A stretch of 64,000 bases of DNA from Burkholderia plantarii. Lineage in GTDB: Bacteria; Pseudomonadota; Gammaproteobacteria; Burkholderiales; Burkholderiaceae. Each line of letters starts with the position of its first letter. The first letter of the stretch is position 1. Positions 39,864 to 64,000 of this stretch are shown here, in pieces. The translations under genes were made by a program, and so were the position numbers. The stretch lies in contig NZ_CP007214.1 of the NCBI RefSeq assembly GCF_001411805.1, positions 124,001-188,000 on the forward strand. Reading direction: 5' to 3'. Under the pieces are notes generated by a model. It had not been told where the DNA came from. It did not search any database and saw nothing but the letters and a program-made list of their open reading frames with translations.

Positions 39864-39922
39864 GAAATCTCCTATATTCCAGTTCGCGTTCATCCGAACG
39901 CGCGGCTTCTCAGCCGTTTTAT

Positions 39923-40885: not shown

Positions 40886-40912
40886 GGTGATTTTGCTGTA
40901 TGCGTTCGACGA

Positions 40913-46545: not shown

Positions 46546-47339
46546 CTACGCCGTCCCTCCGACGATCATCTCGTCCACCCTCACGGTCGGTTGGCCGACG
46601 CCCACCGGAATCACTTGCCCCGCCTTGCTGCAGGACGCCTTCCCGGGATCGCACGCGAGGTCGTTGCCGACCATGCTGATGTGGCGGATCGTGTCCGGAC
46701 CGCGCCCCGTGATCGTCGCGCCCTTGACGGGCGCGGTGATCCTGCCGTTCTCGATCAGGTAGGCTTCCGATGCCTCGAACACGAACTGGCCGCTCGTAAT
46801 GTCGACCTGGCCACCCTCGAGGCCCGAGACGTAGATGCCGTGCCGCACCGACGCGACGATTTCCTCGGGATCACGATCGCCGTTGAGCATGAACGTGTTC
46901 GTCATGCGCGGCATCGGCGGCGAGGCATAGCCCGCGCGCCGGCCGTTCCCGGTCGGCGCCATCCCCATCAGGCGCGCGCTGAGCCGGTCGTGCATGTATC
47001 CGCGCAGCACGCCGTTCTCGATCAGGGTCGTGCGCCGCGTCTCGCACCCTTCGTCGTCGATATGCAGCGAACCGCGCCCGCCCTGCAGCGTGCCATCGTC
47101 GACGATGGTCACGTTCGGCGAGGCGACCTGCTCCCCCAGGCGTCCCGCGAAGGCCGAGGTCCCGCGCCGCACGCCATCCGCCTCCAGTCCGTGGCCGACC
47201 GCCTCGTGCAGCAGCACGCCGTTCCAGCCCGGCCCGACCACCACCGTCATTTTCCCGGCCGGCGCCGGCCGCGACTGCAGTTTGGTGAGCGCGGCCGCCA
47301 CCCGCTCGTGCGCGAACGCGCGAAGCTCGCCCTCGGACC
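46546..47339 (-). pseudogene. tldD: TldD/PmbA-family metalloprotease, 5' part removed by IS6
   Basis: The reading from the IS6 edge (47339) to 46546 keeps the catalytic motif HEAVGH ([20 protein letters not shown]), the conserved [20 protein letters not shown] and GISG-type end ([40 protein letters not shown]). It is the C-terminal 260 or so residues of a TldD protein of about 480. The N-terminal ring-binding domain is lost. TldD and TldE are partners that process peptides such as microcins and antitoxins. No TldE gene is seen, and this copy is unlikely to work. Confidence 0.88.
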
Positions 47340-48164
47340 GGCTTTGTCAAGTTCAGTGCTGGAGGCTGTTCGAATTGATGATGCAAAGGAGTCCTGCTGA
47401 TTATCGAGCGAAACCTGCGTCGCTCCAGCGGTACCAGCTGGCAATGCGTTCCTTCAGCCGGGCGCGGTGATCCGCAGCCCTCATGCAGTGACGGGGTAAC
47501 GCGAAGTGTTGCCGGATCGGACCGAAACGTAAAAGGAAAGCCTGGGTGCGCAGCGCATCGCGAAATCCCTGCATCTGGCGCTCACGCCGGCGCGTGGGCT
47601 GGTGACTGTTTTCTGCCCGGTTGTTCACCCGGGCACAGGCCTTCACAAACACGTGCTTCACCCCGTCCAGTTCGGGCACCTCTGCCTTTGCCGCCGGGTA
47701 GCTGCGCAACTGGTCGGTGACGATCTTCCGGGGTACCGGGTTTGCGCGCAGGATGCGTCTGAAGAAGCGCTTCGCGGCCGCCTTGTCGCGGCGCTTCTGC
47801 AGCAGCACGTCCAGTTCGGTCCCATGTTCGTCCACCGCGCGCCACAGCACGTACGGCTCGCCGCGCAGCTTCACGAACAATTCATCGAGATGCCAGGTCG
47901 TGCCCGACCTACCACGCACGGCTTTCGTGCAATGGGCAAACTGTGCGCCGAACCGGTCACACCAGTTGCGTACTGATTCGTAGGTCACAGTCACACCGCG
48001 CTCAAGCAGCAGCTCCTCGATGTCGCGCAGGCTCAGATTGAAGCGGTGGTACCAGCGTACCGCGCAGCTGATGATCGAGGCCGGGAAGCGGTAGCCGTGA
48101 AACGGGTTGCGGGTCTTTGGCATTTCCCCATTCTATCCGCTGGGCGCTTCAAGTTGACATTGCC
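47340..48164 (-). mobile_element. IS6-family insertion sequence, second type, 825 bp
   Basis: The left end is GGCTTTGTCAAGTTCAGTGC (47340) and the right end, minus strand from 48164, is GGCAATGTCAACTTGAAGCG. It has one transposase gene. The flanking octamers differ. The left flank is the middle of tldD and the right flank is the start of a different gene, so the element probably produced a deletion between two genes. Confidence 0.88.
47401..48123 (-). CDS. IS6-family DDE transposase, intact
   Basis: 240 aa. HTH SLRDIEELLLERGVTVTYES, catalytic D80 (TWHLDELFV), D137 (IVTDQLRSYPAA) and E171 (NNRAENSHQPTRR) are all present. About 60 percent of positions look shared with the transposase at 2209. 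No frame damage; this is the only IS6 transposase in the window with a full active site, and it could mobilise related ends. Confidence 0.94.
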   Translation of the reverse strand: MPKTRNPFHGYRFPASIISCAVRWYHRFNLSLRDIEELLLERGVTVTYESVRNWCDRFGAQFAHCTKAVRGRSGTTWHLDELFVKLRGEPYVLWRAVDEHGTELDVLLQKRRDKAAAKRFFRRILRANPVPRKIVTDQLRSYPAAKAEVPELDGVKHVFVKACARVNNRAENSHQPTRRRERQMQGFRDALRTQAFLLRFGPIRQHFALPRHCMRAADHRARLKERIASWYRWSDAGFAR

Positions 48165-48741: not shown

Positions 48742-51700
48742 TCATTCGAAGCGCTGCTCACGCAATTTGTCTCTTGTCGCTTCATATTCCCGCTCCATCC
48801 GAATATCTTGATCTATCTGCTCAAGCTCGGTAACGACCGCTGCCCGAACCTCTGGCGATGGATGCTCCTTAAGCACGTCGAACGCCTGGGCCCGAGTTTC
48901 CATAAGTTGAGCTCGAGAGCCGGACCAACTGCTAGGGGTAATCTTAGCGGCCATCGCACGGAGAACGCTCTGCTTGTCAGGCGCCGCGTCCAACAACCCC
49001 TTGATCTGCTCGCTGAGGACCACGCTCGCCGACTGTGCCAGTGGCACACTACCCTCGGCCACGTGCGTAAACACGCTCATGGCCGTTGCGACACGCGCGA
49101 ACCGATCCGGCTGCACCTGGCACCACGCAATCAGGCGATCTAACGGTGCGCTGTTGAGGAATGGTATTTTGCGGCGTACGCCATCTTTGGAAAAAATACG
49201 GATCAGCCGGCGCTCTCTCTCGTCTCCGGTAAACACTTCGTCGAGGAGAAGCTCGGGGAAATTGCTGGCGAGGGTGCTGACAATGGGATCCAGCTCGAAA
49301 CTGTATAGGCGGTAGTCTGCCGATCTAGCACACAGCAGCGTCACAAGACCTTGAACTTCATCGATCGGAGCAGACGCCACGAGGCATCGACCGGCGACGG
49401 ATTCCATCCCATGGATGCGGTTCTGCGCGAAGCTACCCCTTTTAACAGAGACAAGCGCATGAATGACATCCCGTCCAATCGACAACAATTCATCGCCGGG
49501 CAGGTAGCTACTGTCTTTCCCGATATGAAATCGCATCGTCAGTATGTCAAGGCTGACGTAGATACCCTCTTCTCGATCGATCAACTCAGCCAACAACAAG
49601 GCCAAGTAGGCGTCGGAGAGCGCTTCATGCATTCGGCCGTAGGCGAGTCGCCTGAATCGCGACACGTCGTACTCTTTGCTACGTGCCAACTCGAGCAGCA
49701 CCTCAATTCCCCATGGTTCAATGCGACTAACGCCAAGCAAGTAAATAAAATGTGGTCGCAGCACCGAATGGTTCAGTATTCGCTCTTGCATCGCCCTACC
49801 CATACCACTGTCCGCGTCATGGGCAGCCTGGATGAAGCCACCTAAAAATATCGGGTGGCGACTCGCAGTAGCTTGTTCATAAGCCATCTCCAATAGACGC
49901 TCGAACGTCGCCATCTGATCAGCACTTCCCCGTGCTATCCCGACTCCGAATGAATGCAGTGCGTCGAACTCGCCCGCCCATAGCCTCTCCCCAAGCCGGT
50001 CCAACACGCCAAGGTTAGAGGCAGCGCTCTTGCCCAGCGAGATGATCTTCGCTACGACAATGTCGTTACTGGCGGCGGTGACCTCCCCGGCACTCTCGAT
50101 ATGCTCATGAATATGGACCAACACATATGCCTGGATCTCCGAAGCAAGATCCGACGGTGCAGTGAGGCGCTCTAGATCCATCAACCGAGTCACTAGCTCC
50201 GGGCGAGCATCGTCACAATCGAAGTGAAGAGTTTGCTTGATCGCAAGCCAGAGCTTGGGCCAACCGCCATGGGCATGGCTACGGACGATATCTTCGAGTA
50301 CTTCGGGGCAAAAGGCACGCGTCCATAAGCTCCGAAAATGCCCTGCAAACAAAGCACGCGCCCATTCAGAACGCACTGGTTCACTCGAGGCAATCTCCAG
50401 CTCCAGCAAATGTAAAAAACCGATATACCAATCGGCCACCTCAGCTGACGTGCGAGGACTCCAGCCGGTATCACGCCGTCGCGCTCCGAAATCAAACATG
50501 GAATAGGAAATCCAATGCCTCGCCTCGAGCGCAGCGTGGAAAAGCGCCTGAGCGATCTCCAGGTTTCTGATCGTACCCGATGCGAGCAATTTCGCAATGA
50601 CCTCCCGCCTCCTCGACGGAGGTGCTTGCGTCCCAGAAAGATGCAGCGACAGCAGTTGCTGAAGTTGGCCAACAAACCCGTTGTTCGCTTCTTCTGCCTT
50701 CTCGGACTCAGCAAATTTCAACAGTACAGTTGTCGCGCGATCAAACTTATCATCGTCATAGGCGAGCTGCGCGAGCAAGCGAGCGAAGAAGCCGGCGTTC
50801 GGATTCTGTGTCGATGCGAACTCGGGATCACTGGCAGCCGCTTCGATTAGCCGCAACGCAATATCTGGAAACACCGGTGCGATGAAGTGAAATGCCGACA
50901 GCATTTTCTCATCAAGCGTACGAATGTCGTGCATCGGCCCGCCCGGGGCCACCCAGCTGTCGGCAAGGCGACGCACCGGTTCGACATCGTGCAGATATCC
51001 CAACCGATGGGCGCACGAATAGAACAGTCTCCGATTCTCAAGTTTCAGGATTTCGGCGTTGATCTCATCAGGCGATATGCTCTCGAGAGCGCGTTTGGCC
51101 AATCGGTTGGCGAGGGCATGCGGCAGAACCGCACGCCAATTGCCGCGGCTTTGCGTCAGTTGACGACGGAGCAGCTCGGCCAGCCCTCGACTCAAGGTTC
51201 GCCGACTGAGCCCGGAAACGGTCGCCAGCACACCCATTTCGTCATTTGATTCTGATAACGAGACATTGAACGAATAGACCAGAGAAAGCACTTCGGCAAC
51301 CTCCAGAACCTGATCGTCGGGGCTATTGCGCTGCCTGAACAGCCGCTGAAATAAGGCTCCGTCCGAGAAATTAGTGAGTGTCTCGTCCGCGTCGACCCGA
51401 CCCGCCAGTGCTATAGCGACTCGGGCATTGCCACCTGAAAACTCGGCGATCTTGTCCGCATTAATTTGTCCCAAATCTGGAAAGCGTCGCTGTATTAACA
51501 AGGAGACCGTTTTCTCACCGCTAGGCTCGATGTAGATCACCTCCGTTTCTTCTGGGCGATCCTCAGAGACGTCGTATTCAATTGTCAGCAGGCTAAGCTT
51601 CGCGTTGCTCTCAGACACCTGCTTTTGCAACTGACGATGGACGTCTGGCGGACAATTGTCGAGCACCAAGTAGACCATGTGGCCGTTAGCGATCAGATAT

Positions 51701-52563
51701 GAGACCAGCTCCGACGCTGTCGGCACCAAAGTCTCCCCCAGATCAGCATAGATCGTGCTGGCCGACGACAACGCCCCTTTGCCAACATCTGTCTCAAATA
51801 GCGCTTGCGCGAATCGCGTCTTACCGACCCCGGACAAGCCGGTGATGCGGACCGCCTTGCCGCCGGTCCGCAACCGGTCTCGGACCAGATCGACGCCTTC
51901 GAGAGCCGGAACGGGATTTTTCTGCGTCGAGTTCACGTCGATAACGCATGGATGATCGTCCGCCAAGTACGCATCATCTTGCCTTGGTGGAGTCGCCGCC
52001 CACCGCCCGAACGACTTCCATCCCGACAAGGGTTTTCCACGCCGAGTGCGGGCCCATAGACTGACACTCGGATGTCGCCGCAGCCAATTGGACAACCGGT
52101 CCCGACCGTAGAAATCGAGGAATAAGTCCGCCTTGTTTGGCAGCTGCTCGACGACCGATTTCATCCCACGCAATCGGCTCGCCAGCATGCTGTCCGAGCA
52201 GTCGTCTTTTCCGCTGACGATGATGTAAGCACCATGCTGGTCAGCAAGCTCGGCGATGACCGCCTTCAGCGTCCCGCTATCCAACATCTCCTTCCTACAA
52301 GCGGCCTCGCCCATTCCGTGCTTCTTGACCTGGATGCCGCAGCTTCCTCGTGGCACGAAGCCGTTGCCGGCCGCCAGCCCGGCGTCCGCGATACGCACAT
52401 CCAGTCCACCGTCAGGAGCCTCCTGAGCACCGCCCCACGTTACGCAGGTTGACGGCCTCCCCTGCTGAAGCAGCTCGGCTTCGCACAACCGCGCGACCAG
52501 TTCACGCAGATCACCGGCATCGAGATCCGAGATGTCCGAAGGTTCCAGTTCAAAGAAAACCAT
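48742..52563 (-). CDS. STAND NTPase with N-terminal Mrr-like nuclease head (Avs-like defence protein)
   Basis: 1,273 aa. Residues about 15-165 resemble an Mrr-type PD-(D/E)xK nuclease: WGGAQEAPDGGLDVRI with Asp55, then GIQVKKH with Gln78 and Lys80, spaced as in the family. Residues 215-480 form a P-loop NTPase: Walker A GLSGVGKT (242-249), Walker B VYLVLDNC (D302), then a winged-helix-like part with FSGGNARVAIALAGR. From about 500 to the end the chain is helical repeats without other motifs. This order (nuclease, STAND, long repeat sensor) is that of Avs antiviral proteins, where the repeats bind a phage protein and trigger DNA cleavage. The nuclease residues are present but the family match needs a profile search. 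Confidence 0.72.
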   Translation of the reverse strand: MVFFELEPSDISDLDAGDLRELVARLCEAELLQQGRPSTCVTWGGAQEAPDGGLDVRIADAGLAAGNGFVPRGSCGIQVKKHGMGEAACRKEMLDSGTLKAVIAELADQHGAYIIVSGKDDCSDSMLASRLRGMKSVVEQLPNKADLFLDFYGRDRLSNWLRRHPSVSLWARTRRGKPLSGWKSFGRWAATPPRQDDAYLADDHPCVIDVNSTQKNPVPALEGVDLVRDRLRTGGKAVRITGLSGVGKTRFAQALFETDVGKGALSSASTIYADLGETLVPTASELVSYLIANGHMVYLVLDNCPPDVHRQLQKQVSESNAKLSLLTIEYDVSEDRPEETEVIYIEPSGEKTVSLLIQRRFPDLGQINADKIAEFSGGNARVAIALAGRVDADETLTNFSDGALFQRLFRQRNSPDDQVLEVAEVLSLVYSFNVSLSESNDEMGVLATVSGLSRRTLSRGLAELLRRQLTQSRGNWRAVLPHALANRLAKRALESISPDEINAEILKLENRRLFYSCAHRLGYLHDVEPVRRLADSWVAPGGPMHDIRTLDEKMLSAFHFIAPVFPDIALRLIEAAASDPEFASTQNPNAGFFARLLAQLAYDDDKFDRATTVLLKFAESEKAEEANNGFVGQLQQLLSLHLSGTQAPPSRRREVIAKLLASGTIRNLEIAQALFHAALEARHWISYSMFDFGARRRDTGWSPRTSAEVADWYIGFLHLLELEIASSEPVRSEWARALFAGHFRSLWTRAFCPEVLEDIVRSHAHGGWPKLWLAIKQTLHFDCDDARPELVTRLMDLERLTAPSDLASEIQAYVLVHIHEHIESAGEVTAASNDIVVAKIISLGKSAASNLGVLDRLGERLWAGEFDALHSFGVGIARGSADQMATFERLLEMAYEQATASRHPIFLGGFIQAAHDADSGMGRAMQERILNHSVLRPHFIYLLGVSRIEPWGIEVLLELARSKEYDVSRFRRLAYGRMHEALSDAYLALLLAELIDREEGIYVSLDILTMRFHIGKDSSYLPGDELLSIGRDVIHALVSVKRGSFAQNRIHGMESVAGRCLVASAPIDEVQGLVTLLCARSADYRLYSFELDPIVSTLASNFPELLLDEVFTGDERERRLIRIFSKDGVRRKIPFLNSAPLDRLIAWCQVQPDRFARVATAMSVFTHVAEGSVPLAQSASVVLSEQIKGLLDAAPDKQSVLRAMAAKITPSSWSGSRAQLMETRAQAFDVLKEHPSPEVRAAVVTELEQIDQDIRMEREYEATRDKLREQRFE

Positions 52564-52937
52564 AAGTCATTACCCGTAGCATCAACGTCAATCTCGCTGC
52601 TGAGTTCCACGACCGTAAGTGGATGTTCGTAGCGCGATACGAGAGTCAGAATCTCCAGCAACCCGTCCGGATCCGTCTGGGTCAGACCAGCCACATAGTC
52701 TTCGCGTGTGCCGAAAAATCCCGCGCATTCCCCACATAGCAAATACTTTGTCACTTGGCGGCTGGTGTACAAGGTCGATCCATTCTTGACCTCTATCGGG
52801 TCTTCTCGGCTCCCATGGACCGTCTGCAAGCGCTTGTACGCCCACTTAGGCATCAGGTGACTTTTCCGGAGAAGCTTCTGCTCTTTGCAGAGGGCGCATT
52901 CGCCCGTATTGTCAAACACCTCATGCTCGGTTTTCAT
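52440..52937 (-). CDS. Small zinc-binding (HNH-like) protein overlapping the STAND gene start
   Basis: 165 aa from ATG 52937 (MKTEHEVFDNTGECALCKEQ). Four cysteines in two pairs, C14-x-x-C17 and C68-x-x-C71, with the SHLMPKWAYKRLQ segment and His27 between them, resemble HNH-type and McrA-like zinc folds. The stretch to about residue 125 looks coherent; the last 40 residues are encoded by the other frame of the STAND gene's first 124 bp, so the gene may be cut short by, or overlap, that start. Its distance to the upstream 1,063-aa gene is 155 bp. It may be a separate gene of the same operon, or a remnant. Confidence 0.5.
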   Translation of the reverse strand: MKTEHEVFDNTGECALCKEQKLLRKSHLMPKWAYKRLQTVHGSREDPIEVKNGSTLYTSRQVTKYLLCGECAGFFGTREDYVAGLTQTDPDGLLEILTLVSRYEHPLTVVELSSEIDVDATGNDLWFSLNWNLRTSRISMPVICVNWSRGCAKPSCFSRGGRQPA

Positions 52938-53092
52938 ACTCACCCCGATCGATCTATTTAGATTTCTCCCGTTCCGAGATAGCACGCAGAATAGAGTCCG
53001 CCTGCGTAACTACGGACATGGCACACACTTACGCCTCGTAGGCGAGAAGAACATTCCTATGGCAGGAAAAACGAAACATGAAACATGAAGGA

Positions 53093-56000
53093 TCACATCC
53101 GGCCGCCCTGAAGACCGCGAGGCGCTAGGAAAAAATTTTCCGGATCGTTTGGCCCAACGTCGGCAGCGATCTTCACGTGCAAGGTGCGCTTCAGGATGCT
53201 GAGTCCGTCGATGGCCTGGAGCGTCTGATCAGGCGCGAGCAGCATCGGCATCAAGCGGTAGGCGCCAGCTTTCTTGTACAGATCCAAGAAGGCGCTCAGA
53301 TTAACGTCGTTGGAAGGCTCCATCGTGAGTGTTCGTGATGCCATCATGGCGACTCTTGAATCACGCAAATCTCTCGGAGGCTCCGACGTGATAACCATAC
53401 CGTAGTGAGTCGGATGCTTGTCGGAAAAACGACGCACGATGCCGATGTGAATCTCCTCCTCTACATCGGCCAATCCAAATCGCTCCCGCCAGCGTTCAAA
53501 TATCTTGGAGGCCGCCTCCCGATTTCTGAACACTAACGCCATGAAGGGTGGCGCCTGCGGATACGTCACTCCGTAAGCTGCGCCCCTCCACTCAGCGCGG
53601 TTCCATAAGTGTACGTCAACGACCGAGTGAACTTTCACGTCGCGATGATCGGTCATCTTTGAAAAATGGAAGTCCTCAGAGGCCACATCCTCCTTTTTCC
53701 CTTCTTTAAGAGTGGAACGTTCACGAACGATGAGAGGGCGGTTGGGTCGAGCTTCGAACTTTTTGGAAGAATGTGTATCCCTTGCCGCGAATCGTGCTAC
53801 GCCTTTGAAAATGCGCTGTCGACTAATGCAAAGGGAGCCGATCATTGCCGCGCGGTCCATGGCCCCATCAACTCGAAACAACTGGTACACAGCGTCCTTG
53901 AGGTTCTTCGCATGACACGTCGCGGAAAAAATCGTGGCTGCCACTTCCAGCAGCATGTTGAGGAAGTCGCCGTATACCGACGGCGAGCCAGGAAAAACCC
54001 CTTGCGGCCACCTCATGGTGATCTTCATACGGTCGATGTCTGTCCTAACCTCGAAGCGCGTGATATTTGCTTCGACGACATAGACGTCGAAGCACTCAGC
54101 ATGAGCAAAGGCATTCACTTCAAACGCTGTCGCGAAGAACGCCTCCACCGTACCAACAATTGCCTCGGCAACACTGATGGCAGTATCACTCGGCTGGTGC
54201 GTGACAGTAATCCTTACGCCAAGCACCGAGGTGACGAACATTTGCTGGTCCTTACCATTGAAAATGGCGGGTCGCCACATCGCATCGCCAGCGGGCTGGC
54301 CGGCCAGTCGGTTGAAGAACGTCACGACGTCTTGAGCGGACTCGGCATCAGGAATCCAACCCTCTTCCCTCAGAACATCCTCGTAGCCGAGCACATAAAG
54401 CAATGTGGCTCGGCTCTGAAACAGGCCGAGTGCTCCCAGAGTGTCTGGGATCATATCCAGCCGTGGCACGTCCACTGTAGAGAGGTTAGCCAACTGGCAC
54501 GCAAGAATTAAATCAAAGTCATGCAATTGCTCGCCGGCCCGCTTAATAGAAGCCTCGTCATAGGGCAAAGAGCTCAGGCAACCGCGTGCGATCTGAATGA
54601 TTTGAAGCACCTCGGGCAGGTGCTTCAACTCCACCGCCTGCCAGGCAGCGTTCATCAGCAAAGGAAAGATCGTCGAAGAGAGCTCACCCTCCTCCTCACC
54701 TTCGATGAACAACGTAGTAGCGGCTGCTGTGCAACTCGCTCGTGCCGCCCACAACAAACCGGCACTGCGGTATGCAAGAGAGAGTTGCGCGTGCGCACTG
54801 ACCAAATCATCTGCATGCTCCTTCTTTGTGAGCAAGCGGGCAGCCTTGCCCAGAAGGCGGATCATTTCCATGTTTTCGTCGAAATCAAGCTGATGCGCAC
54901 GTTTGAGCAAGACCCGCGCACCCTCACTTTCACCGGTCCGTTTGGCGACGAACTCGGACACTTGATCAACGAGGTCGCGATACCCGTGACTCTTCCCTGC
55001 CGCCACACCGAGTACCTCGACTAGTTTGGTCAGACGGTTGACGTCAAACTCGCCCATACCTTCGGCTTTGACAAGGACATCCGAGAACTGGGGCCATAGA
55101 GATGCGAGTCGCTCTGAATCGCCATCTCGCATAGCTTCGTTAGCCTCAATAGTCAAAAGCGAGGTCCGTGCCTCCAAGGCATTGTTTGGACGACTGGGAT
55201 CGCTTGCCAGATCGGACAGCCTCGACGAGAGGCGCGCGATTCGGGGCCTAAGCCCGACTTGCGCCTCTGACAAATGCCCATGGACAACGATATTGAAAAG
55301 TAGCTGCATCAGGTTGCACAGCATTTCCAGGTTTTTTGCGTGGGCGTCATCGATGACCAATGCTTCGAACGCCTCATAACCGTCAACAACGGCCTTGATA
55401 TCGTCAAACCACCAAAAGGCGGTCCACTGAGCCTCGTAGCGGGCTGTGAACTGCTGGCGCTGCGTTCCACCATCATCCGCTAGACGGATCGCCCGGCTGA
55501 ATTTTCCGTCGACGTCAGTTCTGGGTAGTTCCAGTTCGCGGGCGAGTTTGGCGGCCACCAACGCCTCAGCCGCGCGTTGCATCTTCATGCCGGCGAAGGC
55601 CGTGGGATCGGTCAGTTCCTTCTCTATGTCCTCTAGTTGCTGCTTGCGCGAGTAGTCGGACGGCCCAAGTTCGCGCTCGCTAACCTTGTCGCCGATGCCT
55701 AGGTAGTTATACGCGAGATCGCGCCGATTGTTGTTGATGACCTCGTCGACAATCCAACTGCGATCATGGATCGTCACTGTGACGCCATACTTTTCGCTCA
55801 GTTCCTGCTCGACGCGAGCTCGGTCTTTTGCCCGCGCTGCTCTCGATGTGACAAAGAAAACTTTCTTGTAACCGCGCTTCGTATCGACGATGCCAGCCAC
55901 ATCGGATCGCGCCTTGTCAGCCCACGTCTTCTTCGCACTGAAAGCAAATGCCCACCGCTCGCTACCGCTATTGGCCAAGCCACAATAGAGCTTGCCGATC

Positions 56001-56284
56001 TCGTCGGCGACTGGAGTCGTTTCGGTGTCCGCCTTGCTGTCGCCACCGCCCTCCGGCCCCGTGGCAGCCCTCAAGTTTGGACAGATGGTGCGCTCGCAAA
56101 GCTTGCGACAAAACAACTCGAAGTCGTGCGTCTCATTGCGCTCGGTGATACTGTCCAGGTGATATGAAAGGATTTCAGGCTTCAGTCGGTACAGATCGCG
56201 AGTGGTCGAATCCGAATAGCGTTCTGGCCGCAATTGACGCATGAACTCAGACGGTGAAACGAGCTTTTCTTGAGCCTTCTTCAT
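53093..56284 (-). CDS. Large protein with N-terminal PD-(D/E)xK-like domain, unrecognised family
   Basis: 1,063 aa, intact frame. Residues about 50-185 look like a restriction-nuclease fold: FELFCRKLCERTICPN (E56), GPEGGGDSKAD (D82), WAFAFSAKKTWADK (K118/K119), followed by GYKKVFFVTSRAARAKD and TIHDRSWIVDEV, the usual strand-helix pattern. The middle (200-700) is mostly helical and TPR-like (LLTIEANEAMRDGDSERLAS, AHAQLSLAYRSAGLLWAARA). The C-terminal 250 residues end in a mixed beta region (FMALVFRNREAASKIFERW). I see no Walker A motif, so it is not a STAND protein. Start is ATG 56284. No known system fits all of it. It is divergent from the XRE/IetAS block and co-directional with the STAND gene. 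Confidence 0.68.
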   Translation of the reverse strand: MKKAQEKLVSPSEFMRQLRPERYSDSTTRDLYRLKPEILSYHLDSITERNETHDFELFCRKLCERTICPNLRAATGPEGGGDSKADTETTPVADEIGKLYCGLANSGSERWAFAFSAKKTWADKARSDVAGIVDTKRGYKKVFFVTSRAARAKDRARVEQELSEKYGVTVTIHDRSWIVDEVINNNRRDLAYNYLGIGDKVSERELGPSDYSRKQQLEDIEKELTDPTAFAGMKMQRAAEALVAAKLARELELPRTDVDGKFSRAIRLADDGGTQRQQFTARYEAQWTAFWWFDDIKAVVDGYEAFEALVIDDAHAKNLEMLCNLMQLLFNIVVHGHLSEAQVGLRPRIARLSSRLSDLASDPSRPNNALEARTSLLTIEANEAMRDGDSERLASLWPQFSDVLVKAEGMGEFDVNRLTKLVEVLGVAAGKSHGYRDLVDQVSEFVAKRTGESEGARVLLKRAHQLDFDENMEMIRLLGKAARLLTKKEHADDLVSAHAQLSLAYRSAGLLWAARASCTAAATTLFIEGEEEGELSSTIFPLLMNAAWQAVELKHLPEVLQIIQIARGCLSSLPYDEASIKRAGEQLHDFDLILACQLANLSTVDVPRLDMIPDTLGALGLFQSRATLLYVLGYEDVLREEGWIPDAESAQDVVTFFNRLAGQPAGDAMWRPAIFNGKDQQMFVTSVLGVRITVTHQPSDTAISVAEAIVGTVEAFFATAFEVNAFAHAECFDVYVVEANITRFEVRTDIDRMKITMRWPQGVFPGSPSVYGDFLNMLLEVAATIFSATCHAKNLKDAVYQLFRVDGAMDRAAMIGSLCISRQRIFKGVARFAARDTHSSKKFEARPNRPLIVRERSTLKEGKKEDVASEDFHFSKMTDHRDVKVHSVVDVHLWNRAEWRGAAYGVTYPQAPPFMALVFRNREAASKIFERWRERFGLADVEEEIHIGIVRRFSDKHPTHYGMVITSEPPRDLRDSRVAMMASRTLTMEPSNDVNLSAFLDLYKKAGAYRLMPMLLAPDQTLQAIDGLSILKRTLHVKIAADVGPNDPENFFLAPRGLQGGRM

Positions 56285-56893
56285 CTGAATATGCCCTTAT
56301 TTTTGCAGTACGTACCGAATAGACCGGCTATGTCAACATGAGTGAGCAAGTACAACCCATGACGATATGTGGCTTCAGACAAAGATGACTTCCTCATTGG
56401 TCATTCCCTCCCTGGTTCGTCCCGCGAGATATGCTCGTGTCTTCGGATTATCGATCCGGTTAGGCCAGCGTTGTTCTATCTCTCATCGCGTAGTAAGCGC
56501 AAGGCATCTACGGCAGCGTGTTCACGTCTCCAAGCCAAGTCCCGGCTGTCCTCGCACGATACACGATGATGGTAGCAAGATGCGGCATCGTGGTTCGGCG
56601 TAGCTCGCCGACTTCATTCGCCTGAAGTCCGAACACCATAGCCTCAACTGTGTCCTCATATTCCTGCTAGCGGAACGCGTTGCGGCGCGTCGCAAGGACG
56701 CTCCGGCTGCCCCCGCATGAGGCGCAAATCGATCGAGCCAAAGCTGCACGCACTTTCTAACGTTAGCTATTCATTGCTGTTATTTTCTACCTTGTTTGAT
56801 CAGGCATACGGTCCGGGGCTTGGATGCGCAAAACGCGTAGCACCTTCCCGCCCATGATGGCACTGCCACATCAAGGAACTCAGTTTTCTTGTC
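56285..56893. other. Intergenic between the defence operon and XRE gene
   Basis: About 600 bp holding two divergent promoters. Only short readings without family features. GC is lower than in the neighbouring core-like genes. No toxin gene was seen that would pair with the XRE protein. Confidence 0.45.
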
Positions 56894-56912
56894 TATAGCA
56901 CCAAGTGCTATA
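56894..56912 (+). promoter_or_regulatory. Palindromic operator overlapping a TATAAT box
   Basis: TATAGCAC-CAA-GTGCTATA is a perfect 8-bp inverted repeat; its right arm ends in TATAAT (56909-56914), a consensus -10 box. ATG 56957 is 45 bp downstream. Such an arrangement is typical of XRE autoregulation. Confidence 0.75.
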
Positions 56913-56956
56913 ATACCGGGGGCATTTTTAACGGATTCCGGCAAGAGTGGATTGCA

Positions 56957-57271
56957 ATGCGCAAGACGAGATCACCCATCATTGAAGCCGTCCGCGCCAC
57001 GGCCGAAGGGCTTCACGGGGTCGGCCCGGTCGATCAGGTTACGCTACGCGAAATTGACCCACTGTGGTTGCCACCGGTGGAGCCGTTGGAACCCGCCGAT
57101 ATCAGGCGCATCCGCGAAAGCACGCATGTAAGCCAAGCAGTTTTTGCGCGCCTATTGAACACGAGTCTTTCGACTGTTCAGAAATGGGAGATTGGTCAGA
57201 AGAAGCCTGCGGGCACAGCACTTAAGTTGCTGCATCTGGTTCAGAAGCGCGGCCTGGAAGCCGTCGCATGA
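56957..57271 (+). CDS. XRE-family HTH regulator (HigA/NadS-like antitoxin fold)
   Basis: 104 aa. The N-terminal 40 residues (EAVRATAEGLHGVG ... LPPVEP) form a linker, and residues about 46-100 an HTH (IRRIRESTHVSQAVFARLLN, TSLSTVQKWEIGQKKPAG). This is the fold of HigA-type antitoxins and of regulators of RelE-like toxins. No RelE/HigB reading is present upstream or downstream, so the antitoxin is an orphan or a repressor of the genes that follow. The palindrome at 56894-56912 is its probable operator. The next gene begins 121 bp later. Confidence 0.85.
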   Translation: MRKTRSPIIEAVRATAEGLHGVGPVDQVTLREIDPLWLPPVEPLEPADIRRIRESTHVSQAVFARLLNTSLSTVQKWEIGQKKPAGTALKLLHLVQKRGLEAVA

Positions 57272-57392
57272 CTGCGATGCTCAGGCAGCACTTGACCCGG
57301 CCGCCAACGCGCTGCCCAGCCGTTGGCAATGGAATCCAACCCGTCGGCGTACTACCTTTTTCCCGATGGCTCCCAAGTAAAGGTGATGTCGC

Positions 57393-58403
57393 ATGAATGC
57401 AGATATTCTCAAAAGAGTTGTACGCGCCATTGCCGATGGTTCGCAGTCTGACTTAGATCGGCTTGCCGACAAAATCGTCGAAGCAGAACGCAAGACCGGC
57501 CACGTTAGGTTGGCTGAGCAGCTCGAGGCCATCCTCAAGCAGCCTAAGACGAGGCGTGCCCCGCCATCGCCGACGTCGCCAGCCGACGTTGAGCGCACGC
57601 TCAAAGAGTTGCCCATGAGTCGGCGTCACGGAGAAACGCTGGCCACGCTCATCCCGCACGATCAACTGGAGCACCACATGGTGCTGCCCGAAGCTGTCGA
57701 GCAACGCTTCGCCCGCATCGAAGCCGAGTACGCAGCACGCGACCGGCTGCGTACCTTCGGGCTCAAGCCCCGCAAAACCGTGCTGGTCTACGGCCCGCCT
57801 GGTTGCGGCAAGTCGCTGGGCGCCAAACGGCTCGCTTGGAATACGGGCTTGCCGCTAATGAAGGTGCGCTTTGATGTGCTGATCTCCTCGTTCTTTGGCG
57901 AGTCGGCCCAGAACCTACGATCTATCTTCAGCAGTGCCCGCGAAAAGCCATGCGTGCTTCTGCTTGACGAATGCGACTTCATTGCGCGATCGCGCACGGC
58001 TTCCAAGGACATCGGCGAAGTGTCGCGCATCGTCAATTCGCTGCTGCAACTCATGGAAGAGTACGACGCGCCAGGCCTGCTTGTCGCGACGACGAATCTG
58101 GAGTCCGCGTTGGACCCGGCGCTGTTCAGGCGCTTCGACGACGTGTTCGCCATCCCGCTGCCGGGGAAAGCCGAGATCGAAAAATTGCTGAAAATGACGC
58201 TGTCCAGTGTGCGGATGGACAGGCCCATCGCCTGGGAACCTCTGGTCGCCAAACTCGAGGGTTCATCGGCCGCAATGGTCGTGAAGGCCGCCCAGGACGC
58301 CGCCAAGGCTACCGTGCTAGCCGGTCACCCGTCCTTGTCGCAAGACAAGCTACTCAAGGCCGTCGAAGAACTGCAGCGGCACGACGCCGCACAACGGGCG
58401 TAA
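57393..58403 (+). CDS. ietA: AAA+ ATPase, IetA-like (IetAS defence pair)
   Basis: 336 aa. After an N-terminal helical region (residues 1-100) comes the AAA+ core: Walker A GPPGCGKS (134-141), Walker B LLLDECDF (D192, E193), sensor ATTNLESALDPALFRRFDD, with arginine-finger RRFD. This is the FtsH/CDC48-like clade. The subtilase gene starts 3 bp after its stop, so the two are co-translated. AAA+ plus subtilase is the IetAS arrangement, known from an Agrobacterium plasmid incompatibility/toxin locus and later scored as anti-phage. A leader AAGGTGA precedes ATG 57393. Confidence 0.85.
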   Translation: MNADILKRVVRAIADGSQSDLDRLADKIVEAERKTGHVRLAEQLEAILKQPKTRRAPPSPTSPADVERTLKELPMSRRHGETLATLIPHDQLEHHMVLPEAVEQRFARIEAEYAARDRLRTFGLKPRKTVLVYGPPGCGKSLGAKRLAWNTGLPLMKVRFDVLISSFFGESAQNLRSIFSSAREKPCVLLLDECDFIARSRTASKDIGEVSRIVNSLLQLMEEYDAPGLLVATTNLESALDPALFRRFDDVFAIPLPGKAEIEKLLKMTLSSVRMDRPIAWEPLVAKLEGSSAAMVVKAAQDAAKATVLAGHPSLSQDKLLKAVEELQRHDAAQRA

Positions 58404-58406
58404 GTC

Positions 58407-61091
58407 ATGCCGGAAGCGCACAACTTCGAGCATCTGCCGCTTTTGCTCCGCTACAAGGGACATGCACGCCTTCCGAGCGGAGGAAAAACCAACCCGCAGA
58501 CGCTGGCGAACAGAAACGCCCGGCAAGCGCACAGCACGGCCCTGCAAGGTGCTGTGCAAGCGCTCTCGGGCAACTGGAAACAGCGGCAGGCGCAACGGCA
58601 AGGCCAAGCACTGCCGGTCATACCGAACGGCATCCCCATCCTGCTCAAGGTTGACACGGGGCTGGACCTAGATGTTCTAAGAGACCGCTTCGATTTCGAG
58701 ATTGTGGCCGAGCAAGAAGAAGGCTACGTTATTGTCGCATCAGAAGACATCGACGTTGCGTCGTTCCTCGCAATGGTCGATGGCTTTGCCGTGAATGTTC
58801 ATGGCTCGGCAACCATCGCTAGTGTCCATCGGTTGTTCGACGACCCCGACCAGACCGACCGGCTGGGCCGCATCCTGTCGGAACGGCTCTTCGCTGATTG
58901 GGGAAACATCGCGGACGATCAAGACTTCATTGTCGATATTGGGATCGCCTGCGCCGGTACACAGGAAATCCCATCGGTACCGAAGCGCGGCAAGCGCGAC
59001 ACCGACGCCACATGGGCCGCAAAAGAACTAGCCTGGTCCCAAGCGCGGAACGACGCCTACGATGCGTGGGAAGCGCTGAAGATCGAGCGCGAAAATCAGA
59101 TCGAGAGTTTCCGCGCCTTCTATCAGGCTGAGGTCCTTCACAACATTGAGGGGGCACCCTTCGACGCGGGTGTGCTACCCGACAGCTTCACGGTTCGACT
59201 CGAGATATCGGGAAAAGGGCTCAAAGACTTCGTCCTGAACTACCAGTATATCTTCGAGGTCGTTGAGCCAGAGGACATCGCGCTCCCCCAAGCTGTCGCA
59301 GGCCAAGTAGGTCAAGTTGGTCAGCAGGTCACTCCGACCCCTCCGAATGCTGACGCGCCGACGGTCTGCGTGGTCGACAGCGGCATTCAAGAGGAACATG
59401 CCCTGCTGCAGCCGGCCGTAGATCAAGCCGCGTCATACTGCTTCCTGCCAGAGATGGCCGCCACTGCCGTCGCCGACGAAGTCGCACCAGGGGGACATGG
59501 TACAAGAGTGGCGGGCGCCGTGCTCTACGGCGAGGAAGTCCCGAAGATAGGTGCACCTAAGCTGACCTTCTGGATTCAAAACGCACGCGTGCTCAATGCG
59601 CAAAACCTCATGCCCATCACGCTCTTCCCGCCAGAAGCGATACGTCGGGCTGTTGAGCGTTTCAACGATGGACCGCGGCAGACGCGTATCTTCAATCACT
59701 CTATCAACGCACGTGGCTACTGCCGCACGCGCTACATGTCGTCGTGGGCCGCAGAGATCGATCAGCTTTGCAACGAACGGGACGTGCTCATCGTGCAGAG
59801 CGCGGGCAACCTTCCGCTTGATGGAGCCGCCCCCTTCATTGGCATCCGCGAACACCTTGCCGCCGGCCGGGACTACCCTGCCTACCTGTCGGAAAATTCC
59901 GTCCGAATCGCCAATCCGGGGCAAAGCCTCCAAGCCTTGACCGTTGGCTCTATCGCCTACGACGTCGCGGAAGTCGGCCTATGGCGTAGCTTCGCGATCC
60001 AGCCCGACGGGCCTTCGGCCTTCTCGCGGACGGGACCAGGCATCTGGAACGTCATCAAGCCGGAAGTGGTCGCCTATGGCGGTGACGCGGTCCGCACCAC
60101 CGGCAACCCGCCTGACATCCAAGGCGGTGGCCGCATTCCGGCCGCTTGCCCGGAGCTGGTGCGGTCAACACTGCACGCGCCTGGACCTGCATCCGATCGG
60201 GACGATGCAGGTACCTCCTATGCAGCGCCCAAGGTAGCTCGTATCGCGGCACAAGTGCAGCGGGTTCTGCCCGATGAACCTGCACTGCTCTACCGCGCAC
60301 TCATCGTGCAGTCCGCGCAGTGGCCGGCTTGGGCGGAAGATCTACTGACGCGCCTGCGCAATCCGCCCGATAACCTGATGCAAGCAGAGAAGCAGGCCCT
60401 GCTCAACGCAGCGTCGCATGCGCTGCGCTGCCTGGGGTACGGCATCCCTGACCAGGAACGCGCAACCGTAAACACCGATCACCGCACAACCTTCATCACC
60501 AGCGGCGACACCGAGATTCACGCAGCCGAATGCCACGTCTTTCAGGTACCGATCCCGGCAGAGCTTCGCCAGCAGGCGGACGAATTCGACGTGCGAATTG
60601 ACGTCACGCTGTCCTATGTGGCCCAGCCTCGTCGCACACGTCGGAACTTGCGGCGATACCTTTCGACATGGGTTGACTGGAAGGCCAGCAATCTTGGCGA
60701 GGGGCTGAACGACTTCCGGGTACGCGCCCTGAAGAACGCCGCGAACGATGACGAACCTCTACGCGGATCGGCTTTGCCGTGGACGTTGCACGAAAAGCCG
60801 CAATGGGGAGTTATCCGCGATCACAAGCGTAACAGCGGTACGGTGCAAAAGGACTGGGCAGTCGTGCGGTCGAACGCGCTGCCTGACCACTTCTGCATCG
60901 CTGTCGTCGGACACCAAGGCTGGAGCCATGACCCAGATTCGGCTGCGCGCTATGCCCTTGCTGTGACGTTTGAAGTCTTGGGCCAAGAGATCGCGATCTA
61001 TGAGCCGCTACGCTCGGCCGTCGCCGAGTTGCAAGCAGAGGCGGGCGAGATTGAGGCTGAAGCCGAAGTAGAGGTTGAGGTCGATGAGTAA
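58407..61091 (+). CDS. ietS: Subtilase (S8) protease, IetS-like (IetAS defence pair)
   Basis: 894 aa. Catalytic triad by position: D324 (VCVVDSGIQEEH), H364 (GGHGTRVAGAVLYG) and S604 (GTSYAAPKVAR). The N-terminal 300 residues have no signal peptide, so the enzyme is cytoplasmic, unlike most secreted subtilisins. The C-terminal 200 residues form a beta-rich region (DVRIDVTLSYVAQPRRTRRN) and an acidic tail (EAGEIEAEAEVEVEVDE). In IetAS the ATPase is thought to present or unleash the protease during infection. The frame is intact and full length. Confidence 0.88.
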   Translation: MPEAHNFEHLPLLLRYKGHARLPSGGKTNPQTLANRNARQAHSTALQGAVQALSGNWKQRQAQRQGQALPVIPNGIPILLKVDTGLDLDVLRDRFDFEIVAEQEEGYVIVASEDIDVASFLAMVDGFAVNVHGSATIASVHRLFDDPDQTDRLGRILSERLFADWGNIADDQDFIVDIGIACAGTQEIPSVPKRGKRDTDATWAAKELAWSQARNDAYDAWEALKIERENQIESFRAFYQAEVLHNIEGAPFDAGVLPDSFTVRLEISGKGLKDFVLNYQYIFEVVEPEDIALPQAVAGQVGQVGQQVTPTPPNADAPTVCVVDSGIQEEHALLQPAVDQAASYCFLPEMAATAVADEVAPGGHGTRVAGAVLYGEEVPKIGAPKLTFWIQNARVLNAQNLMPITLFPPEAIRRAVERFNDGPRQTRIFNHSINARGYCRTRYMSSWAAEIDQLCNERDVLIVQSAGNLPLDGAAPFIGIREHLAAGRDYPAYLSENSVRIANPGQSLQALTVGSIAYDVAEVGLWRSFAIQPDGPSAFSRTGPGIWNVIKPEVVAYGGDAVRTTGNPPDIQGGGRIPAACPELVRSTLHAPGPASDRDDAGTSYAAPKVARIAAQVQRVLPDEPALLYRALIVQSAQWPAWAEDLLTRLRNPPDNLMQAEKQALLNAASHALRCLGYGIPDQERATVNTDHRTTFITSGDTEIHAAECHVFQVPIPAELRQQADEFDVRIDVTLSYVAQPRRTRRNLRRYLSTWVDWKASNLGEGLNDFRVRALKNAANDDEPLRGSALPWTLHEKPQWGVIRDHKRNSGTVQKDWAVVRSNALPDHFCIAVVGHQGWSHDPDSAARYALAVTFEVLGQEIAIYEPLRSAVAELQAEAGEIEAEAEVEVEVDE

Positions 61092-61161
61092 CCGGACCTC
61101 AGAGGCCGCAAGCGTCACCGCTTCAAGCTGAGCGTGAAGACAACCGTCTCTCGCATTTCTG

Positions 61162-61887
61162 CTACTCACCCTGCCCTAACGAAGGCCATGCAATATTGTC
61201 TAACGCATTGATTTCTTGCCGCGCAGCGTTCCCATATCTCCGAACGATTTTCAGTCGCTCTTCATTCGCGGCAAGGGATCGGACGAGCTGTTGGATTTCC
61301 TGTTCGCTCACACCGGCTTGCTTCAAGAGCGCGATCTGCGGCATCACCAGTGTCCCCAACTCGATGGGGCCAACAGGGTCATGACCGGGGTTGATTTGTG
61401 CCACTTGGAACCGCGCTCGCAAACGAGCATCCTCGATCGTTCTCGCCGCTCGATTGATCGCTTCATCGAGCGCCGCGCGATCTGCAGGGCGCAACTCCTC
61501 AAGATCGGCGACAGACAACAGTTGCTCATGCAGACATTGGGGCACCTCGATGGCTAACGTCTGCTCGGTGACGTCCGGAGCAGGACCGTTTGCGGTGGCG
61601 GGTAAGACGGGCACCATTAGTCCAGTGCATTGCGCATCCGCATTAAAAATATATCGATGCACTGCGTCCCGCCGAATCTTCCTATAGCTGCTCTCGACTC
61701 GTTGCTCTAGCTTCGCGAGTTCTTGCTGCTGCTTTGCGACCTGCTCGTCCACTGCAGCTTTTTGGTATAAGGGGATGACCGTAAAAAATAATCCCCCAGC
61801 CGTCAATACCGTGGTTAGAACCTGCGCGATGTGACTTGCAATCGGCACGTACCGCTCAACAGTTTCAAACCAGTTTTTCTTTGTCAT
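61162..61887 (-). CDS. Single-pass membrane protein with coiled coil, convergent with ietS
   Basis: 241 aa from ATG 61887 (MTKKNWFETVERYVPIASHI), the only start preceded by a purine-rich leader (AGGAAAGAC). Residues about 18-41 are hydrophobic (IAQVLTTVLTAGGLFFTVIP), followed by a coiled coil (EQVAKQQQELAKLEQRVESS) and a soluble domain of about 170 residues without motifs (LNAA-like helices, PQCLHEQLLSVADLEEL). I do not recognise the family. It ends 71 bp from ietS and faces the recombinase gene, so it is in the defence island. Confidence 0.6.
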   Translation of the reverse strand: MTKKNWFETVERYVPIASHIAQVLTTVLTAGGLFFTVIPLYQKAAVDEQVAKQQQELAKLEQRVESSYRKIRRDAVHRYIFNADAQCTGLMVPVLPATANGPAPDVTEQTLAIEVPQCLHEQLLSVADLEELRPADRAALDEAINRAARTIEDARLRARFQVAQINPGHDPVGPIELGTLVMPQIALLKQAGVSEQEIQQLVRSLAANEERLKIVRRYGNAARQEINALDNIAWPSLGQGE

Positions 61888-62238
61888 GTCTTTCCTCAAC
61901 GAGCACCACCCTCGCGTGCCCAGTAGGTTCAGCCATACTGCAAGAAGTTGATAGGAAACGGCTGATAGAAGCCTTTGTGGCGTTGATGCGGGCGAAGCTC
62001 CCCGCACGTAGGTCGACCGGTTCTACTGGCTTGCGCAGGCAACAACGACGGTCAAACCATGAATGTCGGCAAAGGTTTTCTCTGTGACGGCCAGGGGCGC
62101 ACCTAGATCGGCGACAAGCCGCAAGACTAGATGGGCTTGTCGGCCGCTTCCCGATCAGCGTCAATGTTGACGGGCGTCGCCCGGGCCCGCCCTGGCTCTG
62201 ATGATTGCGTTCACCTCGATCCTCAGTCCCAACTCAGA
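61888..62238. other. Intergenic before the recombinase gene
   Basis: 351 bp. No gene. Repeated short GC-rich segments (GGCTTGCGCAGGC, GCACGTAGGTCGACCGG) but no obvious att site that I could pair within the window; the partner would lie outside it. Confidence 0.35.
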
Positions 62239-64000
62239 CTACTCGCCGCGACCCGCGGCGAGCCGCGCATGGTACTTCGCGCTTTCCTGGCGCATGCGCT
62301 GCTGCTCCGCATTGACGTAGATGGTGGTGGTCTGCAGCGAGCCATGGCCCAGCACCTGTTGCAGGACCTCGATCGCCATGCCGGCCGCGACCGACTGCGT
62401 CCCGAACGTGTGCCGAAACGCGTGCGGCGAGGTGGCCGCCAGTTGCCGGCGAGCGGACTCGTCGAGATCCGGCAGCTGCTCGAGCAGGCGCTCGAGCGCG
62501 CGCGTCACCACCCGACGTGCCGCGCGCGGCGTGTAGCCGGCCACACGCGTCACCTGGCCGGTGTCCGTCACCCCAAATTTATCCCGACTGGCGGGGGTGG
62601 GCGGCACCACGGTCGGCGCCACCAGCGGCACGCCGTCGGCATTGCCGCCAGGCGCATCCAGATCCAGGCCACGATCCTGCCAGTGCTCGCGCAAGGCCTC
62701 CACGGCGTCCTCGGTCAGCGGCACGATGCGCTCTTTGTTGCCCTTGCCGACCAGGCGCAGCATCCAGGTCGCCGGAATCTCGTCCTCGGCCGGCCACCAC
62801 TGCAGCCCGCCTCGCTCCGCCGTCACGGCTTCCTCAATGCGCAGGCCGGCATCGCCCATCAGCAGCACCAGGGCCCGAGCCACGCGCCAGTCCGGCCCCT
62901 GCGGGCCGAATCCTTCGGAGCGATCGGCGAGCTCCGCGCGCACCCGGCTCCACACGTCGATTGGCAGCGCCCGCTGCACCTGCAGCTTAGTCGCCCGCTT
63001 GACCGGCTTCGGGTCGGTCACGGCCACCCACGGGTTGCCGGCCAGGTAGCGGACCTTCACCAGCCAGTCGAACGCCGCGCGCAGCGTGCGCACCGCGTAG
63101 CGCTGGCTGTCGAGCGACAGCGGCGTCAGCGCGAATGGTCGCCAGCGGCCCGAGGCACGCGAGGCCGGCGGCCCGCGGAACGCCTCCGACGGGTTCGCCA
63201 AGAAAGCCTTGTAGGCCTCGCAGTCGTCGACGAGGATCGAGGACATCGGGCGGCCGCGCTCGAGCACGCACCACAGCACGAAGCGCTCAAGTTCGCGCCA
63301 GTAGGCGCGCTGAGTGGCCACCTGCCCATCGTAGCGGTGCAGGTAGGCGAACACCGCGTCCAGATCGTGCGCGGCCGAGATGTAGGGAAACGCCGGCGCG
63401 CGGTTCGCGCCGCGGGCGCCGGCGAGCTCGTGCGGCACCACCAGGCGGTGGATCGGCACCAGCTGGTCCCGACGCAGCGCGACGCGCGTCTCGGGTGCGG
63501 CCAGCAGCGGATCAACCCCATCGACGTCGGCATCCACCGTCTGGCCGATCGTCTCGGCGTGGCGGCGCAGCCAGGCCACCACGGTGCGGGCTCGGCCGAC
63601 GCCGATGCGCGGCACCGAGCGCCACCAAGCTCCGCCTCGGCGGTTGCAGTACGCGACGAGCTCGCCGACCGTACGCACGTCGACCTCGGCCAGACGCTGC
63701 GCAACCAGCGGCCGGAACCAGCGCGCGACGGCGTGAGCCGCCGCTGGCGCGGCCTTGGCCCAACTGCCGGCCGCCAGCTCGATCATCTGCAGCGACACGG
63801 GGGTCAGGCGCGGCTCACCGTACTTGCGAATGGACGCCTGCAGATGCTCGACCAGAACGGGCGAGCCCTCGCGCAGCGCGATCGACACCAGGTCGTCGCG
63901 CATGGTGCGCAGCAGGCGCTCGACGTCCAGCACATCGTGCTCCTCCGGGTCGAAGTACAGCCGTGCGATGGTGGCGATCGGCAACCCTTTGACACGCGCG
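62239..64000 (-). CDS. Tyrosine recombinase/integrase, 5' end outside window
   Basis: About 586 codons in the window, open to the right edge (reading upstream as ARVKGLPIATIARLYF), so the start is beyond 64000. The C-terminal catalytic domain has Arg (GDAGLRIEEAVTAE), Lys (LVGKGNKERIVPL), HxxR (SPHAFRHTFGTQSV), and GHGSLQTTTIYVNAEQ with the nucleophilic Tyr. A long N-terminal region (about 250 residues, including VAYCNRRGGAWWRSVP and an SAM-like core-binding part at 210-300) is of the type used by large mobile elements and plasmids. It may have delivered the defence block. Confidence 0.9.
   Translation of the reverse strand, partial: ARVKGLPIATIARLYFDPEEHDVLDVERLLRTMRDDLVSIALREGSPVLVEHLQASIRKYGEPRLTPVSLQMIELAAGSWAKAAPAAAHAVARWFRPLVAQRLAEVDVRTVGELVAYCNRRGGAWWRSVPRIGVGRARTVVAWLRRHAETIGQTVDADVDGVDPLLAAPETRVALRRDQLVPIHRLVVPHELAGARGANRAPAFPYISAAHDLDAVFAYLHRYDGQVATQRAYWRELERFVLWCVLERGRPMSSILVDDCEAYKAFLANPSEAFRGPPASRASGRWRPFALTPLSLDSQRYAVRTLRAAFDWLVKVRYLAGNPWVAVTDPKPVKRATKLQVQRALPIDVWSRVRAELADRSEGFGPQGPDWRVARALVLLMGDAGLRIEEAVTAERGGLQWWPAEDEIPATWMLRLVGKGNKERIVPLTEDAVEALREHWQDRGLDLDAPGGNADGVPLVAPTVVPPTPASRDKFGVTDTGQVTRVAGYTPRAARRVVTRALERLLEQLPDLDESARRQLAATSPHAFRHTFGTQSVAAGMAIEVLQQVLGHGSLQTTTIYVNAEQQRMRQESAKYHARLAAGRGE

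Follow-up and report, generated by a model that had tools for sequence, protein, structure and literature searches.

Do two large genes that lie side by side and each seem to begin with a nuclease encode a single defence system, or are they mere neighbours? This question is raised by a 64,000-nucleotide stretch of Burkholderia plantarii DNA (the window hereafter), which represents positions 124001-188000 of contig C3 (NZ_CP007214.1), the third contig of a three-contig genome of 8.08 Mb (C1 and C2 account for 4.14 and 3.74 Mb; C3, which measures 197 kb, is probably a plasmid). On the minus strand of the window, gene A (48742-52563; 1,273 residues) and gene B (53093-56284; 1,063 residues) are separated by 529 bp, and an initial annotation, made from the letters without database searches, had proposed that both, together with a small zinc protein encoded between them, might form a multi-gene defence system. 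The two open reading frames (ORFs) have the coordinates, strand and lengths that had been claimed, and the spacing agrees with the ~530 bp given.

The ORF of gene A was analysed using PADLOC, Pfam and an alignment with seven homologues, that of gene B using its homologues, their conservation, an AlphaFold model and fold searches. On balance, gene B appears to be a candidate for anti-phage defence that works alone; it belongs to an unnamed family and is predicted to combine a PD-(D/E)xK-type head with a solenoid resembling tetratricopeptide repeats (TPR) and two C-terminal alpha/beta domains. Gene A and gene B are probably defence-island neighbours, not partners.

Predicted architecture and conservation of gene B

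Profile searches, which the initial annotation had suggested as a check, gave different outcomes for the two proteins: gene A falls into the described PADLOC family PD-Lambda-4_A, whereas the gene B protein of the window could be assigned significantly to none of the families in Pfam, NCBIfam or PADLOC (2023 version) and gave no hit to a nucleoside triphosphatase (NTPase) profile. Of 7,997 candidates that were scored, 932 are homologues of it at E<=0.001, and the 120 listed are 58-99% identical to it, the closest of those listed being from Burkholderia gladioli (99%). No named description of the family was found in the open PubMed Central literature, using general words or PD-lambda-4 as search terms and including the accessible part of PMC13092281, although the family might be described under another name.

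The AlphaFold model of gene B (predicted local distance difference test score, or pLDDT, 89.3; predicted template modelling score, or pTM, 0.80) supports the helical repeats noticed from the sequence and suggests four parts: (i) a PD-(D/E)xK-like head at residues ~1-205, (ii) a TPR-like solenoid at ~206-665, (iii) a gluzincin-like alpha/beta region without a zinc motif at ~680-830 and (iv) a second alpha/beta domain at ~880-1050. In the full-length model, the head runs through helix 52-66, strands 87-89 and 111-116, helix 121-133, strand 141-146, helix 152-166 and strand 169-173, an order that would fit a PD-(D/E)xK core. The best fold match of the full model in PDB is the TPR protein LGN (E 2.7e-3), while the only match of the family profile to PDB sequences (E 1.4e-4) concerns the helical part and a protein whose name suggests that it was designed.

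In fold searches, the first of the two C-terminal alpha/beta domains weakly resembles M1/M61 peptidases, but the likeness to the catalytic domain of these gluzincin aminopeptidases is one of predicted fold without the HExxH zinc site, this motif being absent from the equivalent helix in all 14 rows examined; 82 of 83 sequences lack it anywhere in the C-terminal part (in the remaining one it is present but misplaced). No viral fold matches the C-terminal model at E<=0.001. The last domain did not fill the fold-match lists, which should not be taken as a sign that its fold is new.

Conservation is highest in the putative nuclease head. In an alignment of 83 sequences (the window protein, 71 of 75 near-full-length proteins from genome loci and 11 database proteins), E56, D82, D86, S116, K124 and D128 are invariant and K84 varies once, and the mean frequency of the top residue is 0.67 in the head compared with 0.56, 0.41 and 0.51 in the other parts. 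The Walker A pattern occurs in none of the 83 sequences, which, like the profile searches above, agrees with the earlier observation that gene B has no NTPase motif.

Distribution and neighbours of gene B

A scan of representative genomes yielded 152 relatives of gene B among 254 pattern matches, and the best 80 of these, which were taken as genome loci, include members of Pseudomonadota, Bacteroidota (Runella, Hymenobacter), Chloroflexota (Anaerolineaceae), Acidobacteria, Bacillota (Moorella) and desulfobacterial genera (the phylum names are partly our own assignment). Gene B is also present in 13 plasmid records, including Nostoc and Cohnella plasmids, as well as in five viral contigs, one of which encodes a partial relative, and in one phage record (25% identity); megablast of 52000-56300 against plasmids gave no match. 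It is rare in every sample: three of the 369 class genomes sampled and two of 101 relatives carry it, the window's own genome being counted in each. These plasmids and viral contigs, together with identities to proteins of other genera at genome loci (74% for Variovorax and 71% for Pseudomonas fluorescens, compared with 54% for Burkholderia dolosa), suggest that gene B has moved horizontally.

Some copies may not be intact. Three genome loci (L042, L059 and L064) have only shortened gene B frames although the contig continues, which may be due to decay or, in draft assemblies, to sequencing error. A headless gene B in Pantoea was considered as a modular variant but is read as a broken gene, since the ORF next to it on the upstream side looks, by eye, like a piece of the head. 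In a viral contig (L128, 8001-11123), a kinase-like ORF on the opposite strand and then a terminase-like ORF come after the gene B relative (labels given by reading the sequences), and at one other locus (L018) an annotated protein kinase gene lies directly downstream of gene B.

We compared 89 loci of gene B (nine on plasmids and 80 in genomes) with flanks of up to 9-10 kb per side, often less (the full 10 kb on both sides was available for 40 of the 80 genome loci). Neither gene A nor the zinc protein (blastp, E<=1e-3) was found in the flanks of any of the 89, and the co-occurrence test that the initial annotation had named beforehand thus came out against a multi-gene system. Likewise, the 13 plasmid records with gene B share no accession with the 30 listed of 43 that contain gene A, and among the 369 class genomes gene A is present in 13 and gene B in three, both being present only in the window's own. 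As these genome-wide counts are small, it is the comparison of 89 loci that weighs most heavily against a joint system. One operon-encoded system made of gene A, the zinc protein and gene B, an idea prompted by three ORFs close together on the same strand, is therefore very improbable, especially since the zinc gene itself is truncated (see below). The B. gladioli gene B homologue (P0001) and a zinc-type homologue (P0121) are both listed with a longest contig of 195,844 bp, which does speak for a link and suggests that the zinc gene and gene B were neighbours before gene A arrived. Of the two roles that had been offered for gene B, independent effector or partner, only the former is supported.

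No general partner emerged. Besides gene B, 21 clusters of neighbours occur in at least four of 90 loci, the most widespread being integrase-like (10/90), followed by a 622-residue gene immediately upstream in seven loci, six of which are from Sphingopyxis. Three further clusters, one of them resolvase-like, occur in six loci and the others in four or five, including 440-, 483- and 592-residue genes next to or near gene B (cluster labels come from reading the sequences). The immediate same-strand neighbours are diverse, and a recurrent general partner was rejected because no cluster is found in more than 10 of the 90 loci.

In these neighbourhoods, matches to known defence families abound: the 138 near ORFs scanned matched 199 PADLOC families and the 128 far ORFs 98, as against four for 88 control ORFs drawn from ten stretches along C1 and C2 (a single genome and a smaller set). 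These are counts of families, not of proteins, since many models may be matched by one and the same protein, and no family shown has more than two members among the near, three among the far and one among the control ORFs. Near ORFs were limited to two per locus and to 130-650 residues (155 were found, 140 sampled and 138 scanned after two gene B fragments had been removed), while all far and control ORFs were scanned. The scan left out eight loci (L025, L070, L075, L081, L091, L094, L102 and L103) that were near-duplicates, cut off or chosen by us, and the ORFs stem from simple greedy calling, which includes spurious frames in G+C-rich DNA. Examples are DUF1837 and helicase genes downstream of gene B in a Sphingobium locus, a pair which we take to be Hachiman-type, a near ORF matched by HamA models, and annotated AbiEii and NACHT proteins near gene B in a Nostoc locus.

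Gene A, the zinc-type remnant and the rest of the locus

Gene A matches PADLOC PD-Lambda-4_A (PDLC03991) from end to end (E 6e-302; residues 1-1273 aligned with model positions 1-1283). In an alignment with seven homologues that are 31-52% identical to it, the Walker A motif GLSGVGKT (residues 241-248) reported in the initial annotation is well preserved, G242, S244, G245, V246, G247 and K248 being invariant in 8/8 sequences, as are Q78 and K80 of the QxK motif in its nuclease-like head. The C-terminal part is helical, with a HEAT_2 match below cut-off. PD-Lambda-4_B (PDLC03992; 303 positions), the partner of PD-Lambda-4_A in PADLOC, has no match in the window's own genome or in any of 12 further genomes whose A-like hits include several weak or partial ones; as a control, the same profile found a match in one of 14 genomes (E. 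coli). Since PD-Lambda-4_B is missing and the neighbours differ among five plasmid loci with A-like genes, gene A is an orphan or stand-alone member of the described family. The likeness to PD-Lambda-4 is confined to gene A, as gene B, which gave no hit in PADLOC at E<=0.1, does not correspond to PD-Lambda-4_B. PD-lambda-4 is placed under P-loop NTPase domains in the accessible part of PMC10952713, while the term is absent from the accessible main text of Vassallo et al. 2022 (PMC9519451). A further weak PD-Lambda-4_A-like match (E 8.7e-7) was seen on C1, the largest contig, at 2085635-2086036 (L017), inside an open frame of 1,278 codons.

The small zinc protein did not survive as a whole gene. 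Within the listed ORF (52440-52985, minus strand), only residues 17-136 match homologues (identity up to 93%), that is, 120 codons of a CxxC...H...CxxC zinc-type gene (52578-52937, minus strand). The family, for which 20 proteins of 187-300 residues are listed (query included), consists mostly of proteins of 235-300 residues, and the alignments therefore identify this ORF as a 3'-truncated remnant. Homology ends at a GCT codon (52578), the ATG of gene A (52563) lies 14 bp further on the same strand, and the frame runs on, without homology, through the beginning of gene A. A search of the genome did not recover the missing half, as only query residues 1-121 were matched, at this locus. The junction (52563-52578) looks like a recombination seam, and the simplest reading, which we infer from sequence and alignments, is that the zinc gene lost its 3' part, and gene A its own upstream flank, to a recombination at this point; gene A would thus be a separate PD-Lambda-4_A gene that lost this flank when it was joined to the truncated gene. 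The zinc-type protein was also rejected as a defence-system component because it is a truncated remnant with no counterpart in 64 other genomes of the genus or in viral contigs.

On the far side of gene B, IetA (57393-58403, plus strand; PADLOC E 1.4e-73) and IetS (58407-61091, plus strand; E 4.1e-60) form a separate known defence system, IetAS (57393-61091), followed by a tyrosine integrase with DUF3701 and Phage_integrase matches in Pfam (62239-63984, minus strand). Profile searches thus bear out the defence-island setting that had been proposed. Between gene B and IetA, a helix-turn-helix protein (56957-57271, plus strand) resembles the NadS and MqsA antitoxins below their cut-offs, with no toxin partner recognised in the window ORF list. 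Downstream of gene A lies an IS6-family transposase (47401-48123, minus strand; NCBIfam NF033587, E 3.6e-57), and the C-terminal half of a TldD-like protein (46546-47301; labelled by reading the sequence) stops ~100 bp from it, which suggests a deletion or insertion boundary. Further away, CoA-transferase-like, ferredoxin-reductase-like and Rieske-oxygenase-like ORFs (38553-42235; labelled by reading the sequences) make up a catabolic cluster unrelated to gene A or gene B. Across 48742-63984, G+C content is 53-57% for gene A, the zinc remnant region and gene B and 72% for the integrase, compared with 61% for the whole window, which for the first three is compatible with recent acquisition.

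Readings of gene B and their implications

Judged by its predicted architecture, conservation and context, gene B behaves like a mobile gene of defence islands that stands alone; its nuclease-like active site is invariant, and much of the protein is a large body rich in repeats. Several observations nevertheless weigh against this interpretation. K118, the canonical lysine, is present in only 69 of the 83 sequences, the other 14 having M, Q, E, N or T in its place, and K119 is present in 55; of the head residues singled out initially, E56 and D82 are thus invariant and K118 and K119 vary, whereas K124 and D128 are constant. A variable K118 beside an invariant K124 possibly reflects lysine migration. 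When 29 heads were searched against Pfam, weak scattered hits were obtained (GIY-YIG in three, best E 0.026); the head matched nothing in PADLOC and no PDB sequence below E 0.78, and the loop at residues 77-81 has a pLDDT below 50. In view of this lack of a convincing nuclease profile match, the PD-(D/E)xK call depends on motif order and predicted secondary structure. TPR-like fold matches are readily produced by helical repeats. The argument for transfer is weakened by a Burkholderia stagnalis homologue that is also 74% identical. The neighbourhoods allow for lineage-specific partners, and since near and far neighbours are both defence-rich, the setting does not single out gene B. Moreover, not every PADLOC match represents a defence gene, as illustrated by a far ORF annotated as rpoD that matches MzaA.

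Could gene B be a type IV-like restriction enzyme, whose C-terminal domains read modified or foreign DNA while the head cuts it and the host is not killed? The order of its motifs (E56 in the first helix, GGGD82 and S116-A-K118) is like that of Mrr and type IV PD-(D/E)xK nucleases, and the gene has no general partner. It differs from them in its long TPR-like body and unusual C-terminal domains, and Mrr was matched neither by the window protein nor by any of the 29 heads. No DNA-reading domain was recognised in 72 C-terminal sequences (four Pfam families, each in one member, best E 0.005), and the ~460 residues of solenoid are more typical of protein binding, which makes such an enzyme unlikely. 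A few near neighbours do match methyltransferase models (PDLC03019 in two of the 138 near ORFs). Gene B as an RNase, as a different effector that has a PD-(D/E)xK-like fold but a target other than DNA, or as an effector with altered catalysis would explain the replacements of K118, but is more improbable still, as E56, D82, D86, S116 and K124 are kept throughout, so that the catalytic set seems preserved with its lysine perhaps moved.

Our preference thus remains with a stand-alone anti-phage nuclease, whose activity, trigger, DNA target and role in defence we infer. The solenoid and C-terminal domains would recognise a mark of infection, be it a protein or peptide of the phage or the end of a DNA molecule; this binding would release or assemble the nuclease head and the head would then cut DNA, with no NTP-driven switch required. 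More tentatively, gene B might found a widespread single-gene immune family in which the solenoid and an inactive, protease-derived gluzincin-like domain sense infection and switch on a PD-(D/E)xK DNase with a migrated lysine, K124, and no NTPase. The predicted layout of a nuclease head and a helical-repeat sensor is shared with Avs-type STAND (signal transduction ATPases with numerous domains) proteins, from which gene B differs in having no recognised NTPase domain; the resemblance is one of layout and membership is not claimed, as no PADLOC Avs model is matched by gene A or gene B at E<=0.1.

What this locus illustrates is that two large adjacent defence genes need not form one system, a truncated gene marking the seam between them in this case. 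If gene B does protect against phage, a family of 932 scored homologues would become a named single-gene defence and, if the proposed mechanism is true, would provide an example of a repeat sensor that gates a nuclease and needs no STAND NTPase such as Avs-type proteins have.
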